Source: Microbacterium protaetiae (lineage in GTDB: Bacteria > Actinomycetota > Actinomycetes > Actinomycetales > Microbacteriaceae). Taken from it: 64,000 nucleotides of DNA. Position numbers and translations under genes: made by a program. The notes below the pieces were generated by a model that made no database searches, was not told the DNA's origin, and saw only the letters and a program-made list of their open reading frames with translations. The stretch is taken from NCBI RefSeq assembly GCF_004135285.1, contig NZ_CP035494.1, positions 1,116,001-1,180,000 of the forward strand, read 5' to 3'. This document shows positions 24,838-50,778 of the stretch, one piece after another. Within the stretch, counting starts at the first letter, position 1. Every line of letters begins with the position of its first letter.

Positions 24838-24923
24838 GTTCAAAACTCATTCGATTCGGGCCCCTGCGAGCCGACAGCGGCCTTTCTGGGGGCGTGCGGT
24901 CATGGATGGGATGAGTTTTGAAC
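24838..24923. repeat. 86-bp segment bounded by perfect 13-bp inverted repeats
   Basis: GTTCAAAACTCAT (24838-24850) is repeated exactly inverted as ATGAGTTTTGAAC (24911-24923), enclosing 60 bases. It lies between the SDR start and the tRNA-Gly gene. The AT-rich ends stand out from the surrounding sequence. It could be a MITE-like remnant, an operator or a large stem-loop; no target-site duplication is evident. Confidence 0.6.
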
Positions 24924-24990: not shown

Positions 24991-25061
24991 GGGGCTGTAG
25001 TTCAATGGCAGAACTTCTGCTTCCCAAGCAGACAGCGCGGGTTCGATTCCCGTCAGCCCCT
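24991..25061 (+). tRNA. tRNA-Gly (anticodon CCC)
   Basis: A full cloverleaf folds: acceptor GGGGCTG/CAGCCCC (7 bp), D stem GTTC/GAAC, anticodon stem TCTGC/GCAGA with loop TTCCCAA (anticodon CCC, reading GGG glycine codons), T arm GCGGG-TTCGATT-CCCGT, discriminator T. CCA is not encoded. The 3' half is the attachment site of the integrated element to its right and is duplicated at 30487-30529. Confidence 0.97.
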
Positions 25062-41544: not shown

Positions 41545-41577
41545 GCTGCGCGCGAAGCGCGGGGTCGCATCGCGCGG

Positions 41578-41681
41578 CCGCCGTCTCTGCCCGACCGGCC
41601 GTGTCTCCGCCCGCTCGGCCGCCGTCTCCGCCCGCTCGGCCGCCGTCTCCGCCCGACCGGTCGCCGTCTCTGCCCGACCGG
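41578..41681. repeat. 21-bp minisatellite, five units
   Basis: Five near-identical units with the core CCGTCTCYGCCCGMYCGG, period 21 (one unit is 20), run without a gap into the large palindromic repeat that starts at 41682. Units begin at 41578, 41599, 41619, 41640 and 41661. Confidence 0.8.
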
Positions 41682-41842
41682 CCGTGTCATAACTCCGCCT
41701 CGCCGCGCCGCCGCCGGCGCGCCTTGCGCGTGATTCCGCGGGGACTGCTCGCAGTGGGCGTGACCCAGACTGAGTTGGTGCACGCCCTGCTCGGTAGCCG
41801 AGGGCGTTCGCCCGCCGGGGCCCGCTGCGCTCCGCGCCACGG
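41682..41842. repeat. Large intergenic repeat, dispersed copy (type A)
   Basis: Begins CCGTGTCATAACTC and contains CGCGTGATTCCGCG, GACTGCTCGC, CCAGACTGAGTTGGTGCACG and GCTCGGTAGCCGAG, in the same order as the three tandem units at 49116-49590, 7.4 kb away. The left arm is degraded here (aactccgcct for aactcagtct). The stretch 41545-41980 holds only this repeat, the minisatellite and the promoter region of the next operon. Confidence 0.85.
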
Positions 41843-48160: not shown

Positions 48161-48772
48161 ATGACCGAGCACGTCATCCGCTACCCCGATCTCACACGCC
48201 CGAACGCTTTCACCCAAGAGGAGCTCGGCTGGGTGCCGTGGCTCGAACCCAAGCCCGAGAGCGAACTCACCGACGAGGATTACACCGCTCTCGTCGAGCG
48301 CTCGCGGGCGGCGAGCCCGTATTTCCGGCTGCTCGTGCGCGACCCGGTGGTGCTCGGGGCGCGCACCCGCGCCGACAACGACATCTTCTACAACACCGAC
48401 GCGGGCCTGGCCCGAGCAGAGCGCGAACTCTCGGCCGCCACCACCTCACGGACGAATGGATGCCTCTTCTGTGCATCTGTGCACTCGCGGTTCGCCTCGC
48501 TTCAGGCGCCCTCCCGGCGCGATGACGTGCAGCGACTGCTCGATCTCGGCATCGACGGCGATCAAGACGAACGCTGGACCGCGATCATCGAGGCCGCAGC
48601 TGCCCTGACTGCGACGCCGTCGGCCTTCGGCCCCGCGCATGTCGAGGCGCTGCGCGCTGTGGGCCTCGACGACCAAGCGGTCGTCGATCTGATCCAGAGC
48701 GCGGCGTTCTTCAACTGGGCGAACCGGCTCATGCTCTCGCTGGGCGAGCCGACCCCGCCGACTGCCGCGTAG
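48161..48772 (+). CDS. Alkylhydroperoxidase-domain protein (Avi_7169-like)
   Basis: A 203-aa AhpD-type protein: TTSRTNGCLFCASVHSRFAS carries the CXXC and nearby His of the AhpD proton-relay site, so thiol peroxidase activity is plausible. FNWANRLMLSLGEPTPPTAA ends the protein. It starts 1 nt after the CMD gene. It may deal with peroxide or peroxy-intermediates from the monooxygenase. Its last codons lie at the edge of the repeat region. Confidence 0.87.
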   Translation: MTEHVIRYPDLTRPNAFTQEELGWVPWLEPKPESELTDEDYTALVERSRAASPYFRLLVRDPVVLGARTRADNDIFYNTDAGLARAERELSAATTSRTNGCLFCASVHSRFASLQAPSRRDDVQRLLDLGIDGDQDERWTAIIEAAAALTATPSAFGPAHVEALRAVGLDDQAVVDLIQSAAFFNWANRLMLSLGEPTPPTAA

Positions 48773-48869: not shown

Positions 48870-49046
48870 GTGCAACAACTCAGTCTGGCCGCGCGCCCCG
48901 CGCCGGTCCGCCCGCTCCACGGCGCGAAAGCGCCCCCTGGGCACGCGCGCACAGACTGAGTACGTGCACGCCCTGCCAGACACCCGCCGACACGTTCGTG
49001 GGTCTCCAACCGCCCCCACCTGCTGGTCATGCTTTCCACGCCCGTA
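48870..49046. repeat. Large intergenic repeat, type B, copy 1
   Basis: Begins GTGCAACAACTCAGTCTGG, passes through GCGCGCCCCG and ends its palindromic core with GCGCACAGACTGAGTACG then TGCACGCCCTGCCAGA, CGACACGTTCGTGG and GCTTTCCACGCC. CTCAGTCTG and CAGACTGAG are exact inverted arms about 70 bp apart. Just before it (48810-48860) are five GCGAAGC words. The whole of 48773-49917 contains no supportable gene. Confidence 0.85.
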
Positions 49047-49115
49047 CCGGCCATCGAGGCGACGAGCGAAGCGAGGAGTCGAAACGCGCGTCCGCCACCG
49101 CCTCTCCCGGGCCCA

Positions 49116-49590
49116 CCGTGTCATAACTCAGTCTCGCCGCCCCGCCCCCGGCGCGCCCCGCGCGTGATTCCGCAGGGACTGCTCGCGGTGCGCGTCACCC
49201 AGACTGAATTGGTGCACGCCCCGCTCGGTAGCCGAGCGGAAGCTGCGTCCGCCACCGCCTCTCCCGGACCCACCGTGTCATAACTCAGTCTCGCCGCCCC
49301 GCCCCCGGCGCGCCCCGCGCGTGATTCCGCGGCGACTGCTCGCGGTGGGCGTGACCCAGACTGCATTGGTGCACGCCCCGCTCGGTAGCCGAGCGGAAGC
49401 TGCGGCCGCCGCCGCCTCTCCCGGACCCACCGTGTCATAACTCAGTCTCGCCGCCCCGCCCCGGCGCGCCTCGCGCGTGATTCCGCGGGGACTGCTCGCG
49501 GTGGGCGTGACCCAGACTGAGTTGGTGCACGCCCTGCTTGGTGGCCGAGGGCGTTCGCCCGCCGGGGCCCGCTGCGCTCCGCGCCGCGGA
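49116..49590. repeat. Three tandem copies of a 157-bp palindromic repeat (type A)
   Basis: Units start at 49116, 49273 and 49430 with CCGTGTCATAACTCAGTCTC, exactly 157 bp apart. Each holds the inverted arms CTCAGTCT and AGACTG(A/C)(G/A)T about 85 bp apart, CGCGTGATTCCGC, GACTGCTCGCGGTG, GGTGCACGCCC and the small dyad CTCGGTAGCCGAG. The third unit diverges after GCCGAGGGCG, where it becomes like the dispersed copy at 41682. Confidence 0.9.
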
Positions 49591-49665
49591 CTAACCCCGC
49601 TGGCTGCCGCGTGGCGACGCCGCCGACCACCGACCGCCGCGAAGCCCCGGGTTCGCGGCGGTACC

Positions 49666-49848
49666 GTGCAACGACTCAGTCTGGCCGCGCGCCCCGTGCC
49701 GGTCCGCCAGCGCCACGGCGCGAACGCGCCCCCGGGGCACGTGCGCACAGACTGAGTACGTGCACGCCCTGCCAGAAACCCACCGACACGTTCGTGGCTT
49801 TCCAACCGCCCCGCCCGCTGGGCGTGCTTTCCACGCCTGTGCCCGGTC
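49666..49848. repeat. Large intergenic repeat, type B, copy 2
   Basis: Same order of blocks as 48870-49046: GTGCAACGACTCAGTCTGG, GCGCACAGACTGAGTACG, TGCACGCCCTGCCAGA, CGACACGTTCGTGG and GCTTTCCACGCC. The preceding 60 bases also resemble the 3' end of the AhpD-type gene (GCTGCCGCGTGGCG), so the duplicated block once included that gene's end. Confidence 0.85.
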
Positions 49849-49917: not shown

Positions 49918-50778
49918 TCATGTCTGTGTTGAGATCTCCATGGCGCGCACCGCCCGGTGGACCCCCCGTTCGACTTCGTCGTCCGATCGCTCGTGCACAA
50001 GAGCGAACGCTATGACCTGAAGGGGGAATGAGGCGCGGAAGACTGCTGCTCGTGCGACGGTGTCCGGGTCGGCGAGATCTGAGACGAGATCCCACCCGTG
50101 CCAGCCTGCGAGGCTCGCGACATCTTCGGCGGGATCATCTTCTGCGGCCAGGTCCCAGTCCAGCACACCGGTCACGCGACCGCGCCGCCACAAGATGTTG
50201 GAGCCGGCGAGGTCCCCGTGATTCACCGTCAGGACGGGCGGCCTCAGGGCTGCCAGCGCCGAGATCCGCCGCAACGCCTCGCCGCGCACATGGGCCGGAA
50301 GGCGAGGTAAAACCTGCTCGATCATCACCTCGTGCCACGCGACCCCACCTGAAAAGGAGCGAGCCGGTGCCAGCCACTCACGTAGCGGGGCTGGGTCGAG
50401 AGAGTGGATCACATCAAGGAGGCCACGCAATGTATCGGCCTCGCCCGACCCGTGCGGGTGCGGTTCTCCGTCGAGGCGGCGTGTGGGAACAGCAACGATC
50501 TGACCGCGCGAGACAGGCTCACCCACGCTTCGCGGGACACCGAACGGCAACTCTGGGAGCCGATCCACCAGTGCCTGGGCGCGGCACAATTCGGCACCCG
50601 TTTTGGCATCCCGGGCGACGCGAACAGCGGTATCTGCAGCCAGCACCACGACGCTGCTGCTGCCCGACTCGATGAACTCCCATGTGTTGCGGTGGATGCC
50701 GCGAGAACACAGCGCATCTCGAACGACCGCTTCGATCAGGTCGTCATCTGGGCGGCGATAGCGCGTCTCCATCGTCAT
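49918..50778 (-). CDS. Aminoglycoside-phosphotransferase-family (APH) kinase-like protein
   Basis: A 286-aa protein with the eukaryotic-kinase-like APH fold: VLTVNHGDLAGSNILWRRGR contains the catalytic HGDLXXXN motif and VTGVLDWDLAAEDDPAEDVA the metal-binding Asp. The N-lobe reads FIESGSSSVVVLAADTAVRV. The substrate may be an antibiotic, a sugar or a metabolite; the family name alone does not show resistance. Divergent from the XRE-MNT gene. Confidence 0.88.
   Translation of the reverse strand: MTMETRYRRPDDDLIEAVVRDALCSRGIHRNTWEFIESGSSSVVVLAADTAVRVARDAKTGAELCRAQALVDRLPELPFGVPRSVGEPVSRGQIVAVPTRRLDGEPHPHGSGEADTLRGLLDVIHSLDPAPLREWLAPARSFSGGVAWHEVMIEQVLPRLPAHVRGEALRRISALAALRPPVLTVNHGDLAGSNILWRRGRVTGVLDWDLAAEDDPAEDVASLAGWHGWDLVSDLADPDTVARAAVFRASFPLQVIAFALVHERSDDEVERGVHRAVRAMEISTQT

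Follow-up and report, generated by a model that had tools for sequence, protein, structure and literature searches.

Dispersed 100-bp dyads in Microbacterium protaetiae, probable recognition sites of an AbiEi/Vsr-like predicted nuclease encoded on the same chromosome

What are the large palindromic repeats that lie between genes at positions 48870-49765 of a 64,000-nucleotide stretch of the Microbacterium protaetiae chromosome (contig NZ_CP035494.1, positions 1,116,001 to 1,180,000; the whole stretch is called the window here), and why are their arms kept while their interiors vary? A sequence-only reading had seen in them a B-A-A-A-B array of selected structured elements, either REP/BIME-like or an RNA. 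Our analysis places the repeats in a chromosome-wide family of 100-bp dyads. These dyads are probably the recognition sites of an AbiEi/Vsr-like predicted dimeric nuclease encoded on the same chromosome, and would form a REPIN-like population with an unrelated enzyme.

The five units of the array are real and their coordinates are now fixed (Table 1), and the further A copy that had been placed near 41682 was recovered at 41684-41783 with one arm partly decayed. The A units follow each other with a period of 157 then 156 bp, B1 and B2 are 89% identical across 176 bp, and ACTCAGTCT occurs 9 times in the window versus 0.27 expected. The GTGCACGCCC that had been described as following the arms is present, but it consists of the outer portion of the half-site plus flank and is no separate motif. 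Copies are also found far beyond this place, so a local duplication is not what we are looking at: the 3.79-Mb genome holds 69 occurrences of ACTCAGTCT (30 forward, 39 reverse) versus 1 and 4 for the reversed control, and at least 38 two-armed elements at ~20 chromosomal places, a count that is a lower bound, with loci chosen via an exact 9-mer. Besides the 38, one element is interrupted by an insertion sequence and one half-site stands alone. The insertion sequence, IS110-like by eye, sits within the interior of its dyad (L004 1230-3256; G000:C1 ~379429-381455).

All elements follow one plan, in which inverted 18-bp half-sites near GTGCAACAACTCAGTCTG enclose a central CCGCGNNATNNCGCGG and are joined to it by linkers that are free in sequence and fixed in length. 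Thirty of the 38 elements measure 100 bp, four 99 bp, two 101 bp, one 88 bp and one 89 bp; a C precedes the half-site in 34 of 42 flanks, and two elements (window 41684, genome 532323) have one arm with 6/18 differences. In a set of 16 elements made non-redundant at 60%, the half-sites are rich in information and the linkers carry approximately none; information content rises again at the centred dyad CCGCGNNATNNCGCGG, where 9.7 of 12 specified bases are matched at the exact centre versus at most 5.4 at the shifts tried. These 38 elements and their information profile bear out the earlier description of a dispersed family with conserved arms and variable interiors. A family defined by the centre alone was rejected, as CCGCGNNATNNCGCGG with at most one mismatch occurs at 144 places versus 75 in the reversed control. 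In the element at 3492637, tandem repeats with GAGTACGTGCACGCGAAGA extend from the right half-site (L023 ~735-830), which by eye gives the impression of an amplified arm.

Dyads of this family stand on both sides of a gene elsewhere on the chromosome (G000:C1:367286-368155, 290 residues), which sits between trpS and a GNAT acetyltransferase gene and also has an Fpg-type glycosylase gene among its neighbours. In several relatives dyads likewise bracket the homologous gene, which is fast-evolving. The N-terminal part of the protein is predicted to adopt an AbiEi-like DNA-binding fold (Z 7.0, modest) and its C-terminal part a Vsr/I-Bth0305I-like endonuclease fold of the EDxHD (PD-(D/E)XK-like) kind with acidic and histidine residues of active-site type; these catalytic-type residues are invariant across 40 aligned sequences. 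Homologs occur in 105 of 150 Microbacteriaceae genomes and in 95 of 99 genomes of the genus, often several per genome, and carry source names such as AbiEi-family antitoxin domain, DUF559 and very-short-patch-repair endonuclease. Term searches of the open-access literature, with subscription papers outside their scope, returned nothing that connects dyads of this kind with the protein family and no described function for it. The linked RAYT-type transposase for which a search had been proposed was not found, while a linked enzyme gene does exist and encodes an AbiEi/Vsr-like predicted nuclease.

The linkage between gene and dyads recurs across 78 gene loci (30 best genus loci, 20 paralog loci and 28 from other genera). 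A dyad of score ≥12 lies within ~420 bp on at least one side at 64 of them and on both sides at 21, versus 1 of 78 when distant windows of these loci are scanned. Of the 100 flanks at the genus and paralog loci, 38 hold an inverted repeat of score ≥14; among the controls, 1 of 400 shuffles and none of 97 distant windows do. At the other-genus loci 24 of 56 flanks carry a repeat versus 1 of 52. Where repeats of score ≥9 are present on both sides, 30 of 46 loci share an arm of at least 10 nt versus 4.6% of swapped pairs. The paralogs and the other genera have other arm sequences than the main family. Dispersed 88-bp copies resemble the flanks of one paralog in the same genome (136571-137368; L066, L068, L069), as seen in the 7-8% of that genome examined for copies resembling paralog flanks; these dyads, CGTTCGTCTCGCAGGA with a conserved off-centre GACACGCCCGGGAT, lie at L066 8166 and 8329, L068 3219 and 3423, L069 6852 and in L320. 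A second paralog (G000:C1:2486459-2487232; L319) adjoins a tandem array with a 55-bp period and AAAACTCATCCCATCC-like half-sites.

These counts bear on whether the dyads could instead be sites of another chromosomal protein, with nuclease genes merely placed in site-rich regions. We consider this quite improbable: most copies do lie far from the gene, and arms and protein show no correlation at long distance, but arms match on both sides of many such genes, differ at paralogs and in other genera, and are missing from distant windows of the same loci (dyad in 1 of 134).

The spacing of the half-sites is quantized. A shared half-site core, AACTCAGGA, emerged when 89 flank repeats (63 of the 78 loci) were put through an unsupervised motif search, and the outer core-to-core spans fall into classes of 61-64, 72-75, 83-87 and 94-96 bp with few values between. 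The period is 10.9 bp, with a resultant of 0.82 over 77 repeats (0.81 when 58 loci are counted). At 10.5 bp the Rayleigh p is ~2e-16 and 0 of 2000 jittered nulls are as strong; this p overstates independence because related loci share ancestry, although the same classes still return in other genera and paralogs. Core spans in the main family are 86 bp in 30 of 38 elements, 85 or 87 bp in 6, and 74 and 75 bp in the two short copies.

The architecture of the dyads, the helical quantization of their spans and the linkage of gene and site are direct observations, and from them we infer binding, dimerization, cleavage or nicking at the centre, and autoregulation. Two copies of the protein would each bind one 18-bp half-site on the same helix face via their AbiEi-like parts, so placing the Vsr-like nuclease domains where they could meet at the central CCGCGNNATNNCGCGG, ~four turns in from each half-site. 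The linkers would be mere spacers, free in sequence and fixed in length to whole helical turns, and cutting or nicking at the dyad centre would be restrained or conditional. The gene would bear its own sites on both sides, making autoregulation from the upstream dyad plausible, while tens of further dispersed sites would persist as a REPIN-like population with lineage-specific arms. If so, a common protein family gains concrete, testable DNA targets. The data also suggest that the enzyme of a REPIN-like population, which comprises an enzyme gene and tens of cognate inverted doublets, need not be related to RAYTs, and that site geometry can be read straight from a genome as helical-turn classes.

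Several points weigh against recognition by the nuclease. Arm similarity and protein identity are uncorrelated in Mantel tests (rho -0.003, p 0.50; second test rho 0.000, p 0.47), and the test of co-evolution was not significant across distant paralogs; in the bin of protein identity 0.5-0.6, arm identity goes up from 0.50 to no more than 0.57, and span class relates to protein identity with rho 0.045 (p 0.08). Fourteen of the 78 loci have no score-12 dyad on either side and only 21 have both, 16 of 46 two-sided loci lack a common 10-nt arm, and genome G246 has dispersed elements, none of which was seen adjoining its best-matching gene. The Z of 7.0 for the AbiEi part could reflect a common arrangement. 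Free cutting is difficult to reconcile with a viable genome that has some 40 intact sites, and activity would need restraint. Finally, the phage collection yielded only 1 distant record and the plasmid collection 7 such records, all with <60% identity; plasmid or phage carriage was rejected on these numbers, and such near-absence speaks against plasmid-borne defence cargo.

The same protein might also bind the dyads as a regulator or chromosome organizer, its nuclease fold being inactive or unused and the sites forming a regulon or anchors. We regard this as somewhat unlikely. In its favour, a constant helical phase is suited to looping, DNA-binding autoregulation is described for AbiEi proteins, and syntenic copies across species, aligned in groups, keep their place, arms and near-constant length while the linkers differ much like the flanks. 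Against it, the catalytic-type residues are invariant and the flanking genes follow no orientation rule: with a simple open-reading-frame caller, 115 elements comprised 31 in convergent, 25 in divergent and 41 in tandem settings, 9 inside a predicted gene and 9 undetermined. The dispersed copies are mostly intergenic. The neighbouring genes examined are mixed, mostly metabolic and repair, and this mixture also counts against a regulator or organizer. Dyads at L061, L063, L067 and L071 lie near DNA-repair genes (Fpg type, Ada-AlkA and Ogt, methylpurine glycosylase), which may be coincidence; at L071 the ATPase beside the dyad is RadA-like by eye.

Do the arms act as double-stranded DNA or as a folded strand? 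Across 15 non-redundant 100-bp elements, cross-dyad Watson-Crick pairs in the half-sites number 229 versus 229.3 expected from column composition, with 116 versus 120.9 in the linkers and 64 versus 68.5 at the centre; at single positions the largest excess is 8 versus 4.9 and the largest deficit 1 versus 4.8. Because cross-dyad pairing is no better than column composition predicts, the element behaves as a double-stranded protein site and not as an RNA or hairpin, both of which were rejected on these counts. The arms vary independently and therefore each half-site seems to be recognized alone, as in double-stranded DNA. The arms are complementary, as in a REPIN hairpin, but the linkers have no excess pairing and arm changes are uncompensated. 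The structured-element or RNA interpretation of the sequence-only reading accordingly fails on its own test of compensation, whereas its remark that no named family fits holds for Rfam, which at the gathering threshold returned nothing in the window except a tRNA.

A structured RNA, terminator or attenuator is accordingly extremely unlikely. Long inverted arms in mostly intergenic positions would suit one, and 3 of 21 interiors fold better than shuffles, with z below -2 on one strand (-3.1, -2.8, -2.1). Yet the mean interior z is -0.44, linker length is fixed without linker pairing, compensatory changes and an Rfam match at gathering score are both lacking, and copies occur within araA and an ABC ATPase gene.

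Mobile hairpins of REPIN type, moved by RAYT or another transposase, were the other candidate for a dispersed palindrome, and we hold this to be very improbable. REPINs, too, are inverted doublets with preferred spacing and a variable spacer, have an enzyme gene nearby and form ordered clusters, and short-range copying has happened here, as the solitary A shares its interior with the array 7.4 kb away. But interiors are alike only inside local arrays and unlike between distant loci at constant length: among 662 interior pairs separated by >3 kb, 6 score above the best of 3000 shuffles, all within 8 kb (the lone A versus the window array, and the two halves of the array split by the insertion sequence). 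No Y1 transposase (Y1_Tnp, PF01797) was found in the own genome and only 1 of 59 genus genomes has one, while 5 of 14 control genomes were positive; RAYT/REPIN membership was rejected on its absence from the own genome. That sole transposase (G238:C15, L158) lies ~2.6 kb from a single AACTCAGTCTG, which looks coincidental. Direct repeats of at least 4 bp abut 1 of 38 elements versus 2.3% by swapping. Pairing, as described above, does not exceed expectation. With no target-site duplication and interiors unrelated beyond 8 kb, a MITE was likewise rejected.

Two intragenic copies bear further on how sites arise. Pfam places the 89-bp copy at 2201057 within araA. For the stretch around it, 19 relatives, 18 from the same genus and one from the order, give a gap-free alignment and 0 of them have the arms, an arrangement that speaks against inserted hairpins. 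The central AT of this copy is at 50/51 like that of the 100-bp copies, and its other linker is 11 bp shorter (hand count). Origin by chance was rejected, with ~2.5e-9 such pairs expected (computed post hoc). The second copy occupies a variable linker of an ABC ATPase gene, of ABC-F type in our judgement. The xylA-xylB spacer measures 196 bp in the own genome and holds an element there; in relatives measured in forward orientation it ranges over 1-524 bp, and some of them have other inverted repeats; in G216 and G210 (L082, L090) these have TGTCCCACTT arms, perhaps a further genus family. Under a doubtful proposal, to which we assign little probability, the nuclease itself creates new half-sites: imperfect sites are broken, and short gene conversion from resident dyads repairs them. 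If true, arms would propagate and alter in concert whereas linkers would remain local; such a process would account for an araA site built by substitution without insertion and the lack of target duplications, as well as arms common genome-wide yet different between lineages, and arrays around the gene. The result would be a self-propagating population of nuclease sites, not of mobile DNA segments.

How far does the family extend? The exact pattern was found in 1 of 199 family genomes, its own, and in no other record of the genome contig collection, and AACTCAGTCTG has 0-2 copies per genome in 98 other genus genomes. A sequence-only profile from 21 copies matches 73 of 99 genus genomes at E≤0.1 per genome, with ~10 expected by chance; the strongest matches are in G243, G216, G276, G277, G270 and G217. 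The relatives inspected combine the common architecture with other arms, such as CGTACCGTATTCAGTCT (G216) or GTGCCACAACTCCGCCT (G243). Their arms equivalent to ACTCAGTCT mostly stand 66 bp apart, as here, with deviations of one or two in some, G246 and G164 among them. Scanning for a single arm type returned 61 records (51 Microbacterium, 2 Microbacteriaceae and 8 others), and the 8 others lie within the ~11 estimated by chance for 18 specified bases and three spacings. A viral source was rejected, the sole viral match being an RNA-phage-like contig (by eye; L059 41-128) with ACTCAGTCTG arms and a span of 88 bp, probably chance. A separate fixed-length dyad family, GCGAGACTTCA-47-TGAAGTCTCGC, of 69 bp with inner arms, is present in G246, G225, G207 and G215 (L137-L152, L156); its pairs number 60 versus 59.5 expected in G246, without covariation, and 70 versus 63.8 in G225/G207, a slight excess.

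Within the window, the array is flanked by a carboxymuconolactone-decarboxylase-type gene ending at 48772 and a minus-strand APH-type phosphotransferase gene (49918-50778). At 41577-41680, directly before the lone A, lie short and degenerate tandem repeats of the CCGTCTCCGCCCG(A/C)(T/C)CGG type (by eye). A dyad of a second family has arms like those of the dyads adjoining the paralogous nuclease gene G000:C1:2486459-2487232 and stands ~70 bp before a tRNA gene (24991-25061).

Table 1 Dyad elements in the window
Feature	Position in window	Length (bp)	Details
Dyad element B1	48870..48969	100	inverted half-sites 48870-48887 and 48952-48969
Dyad element A1	49118..49217	100	centre GCGCGTGATTCCGCAG
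Dyad element A2	49275..49374	100	
Dyad element A3	49432..49530	99	
Dyad element B2	49666..49765	100	
Solitary A-type dyad	41684..41783	100	left half-site partly decayed (6/18 off consensus)
Dyad, second family	24838..24923		arms GTTCAAAACTCAT.., core span 74 bp (hand count)

Four groups of known systems invite comparison. BIME, ERIC and MITE are short palindromic intergenic repeats in arrays. The dyads are likewise short, palindromic, intergenic and arrayed, but their distant interiors are unrelated at constant length, they show no target duplications and their cognate gene is of a different kind. I-Bth0305I, an EDxHD homing endonuclease, appears to dimerize on a nearly 60-bp target (PMC3943268), and shares with Vsr the C-terminal catalytic fold predicted here; a very long target would be common to both systems. 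In M. protaetiae, however, the gene lies between intact sites and does not interrupt one, there are many sites per genome, and the DNA-binding part is another. A simple homing-endonuclease form does not fit, since intact dyads adjoin the gene. AbiEi-type proteins, including AbiEi antitoxins and Rv2827c, have inverted repeats as their binding sites, and in two systems the spacing of these repeats is ten base pairs apart (PMC7319586). The AbiEi-like fold and a spacing that differs by approximately one turn (3 or 13 bp in those systems) are shared, whereas the half-site cores here span 61-96 bp, the sites are dispersed over the genome, a nuclease domain is fused, and no AbiEii-type toxin (nucleotidyltransferase) is present among the examined neighbours of the main gene.

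A similar layout is seen in REPIN-RAYT systems, for which the source describes inverted doublets at preferred spacing, a variable spacer, a nearby enzyme gene and ordered clusters (PMC3116915). Dispersed inverted doublets at preferred distances, a variable middle, ordered clusters and an enzyme gene beside copies are all found here. In contrast, the enzyme is unrelated, the own genome has no Y1 transposase, pairing shows no excess, spacing falls in helical-turn classes and no interiors are common beyond 8 kb. Because the Y1-transposase and hairpin tests both fail, the system resembles REPIN-RAYT in layout yet lies outside it. If any enzyme with dispersed cognate repeats were counted as one kind, this would be a new form of a known kind; set apart from each neighbour by its enzyme, its site geometry and the absence of a hairpin, we rate it as categorically new.
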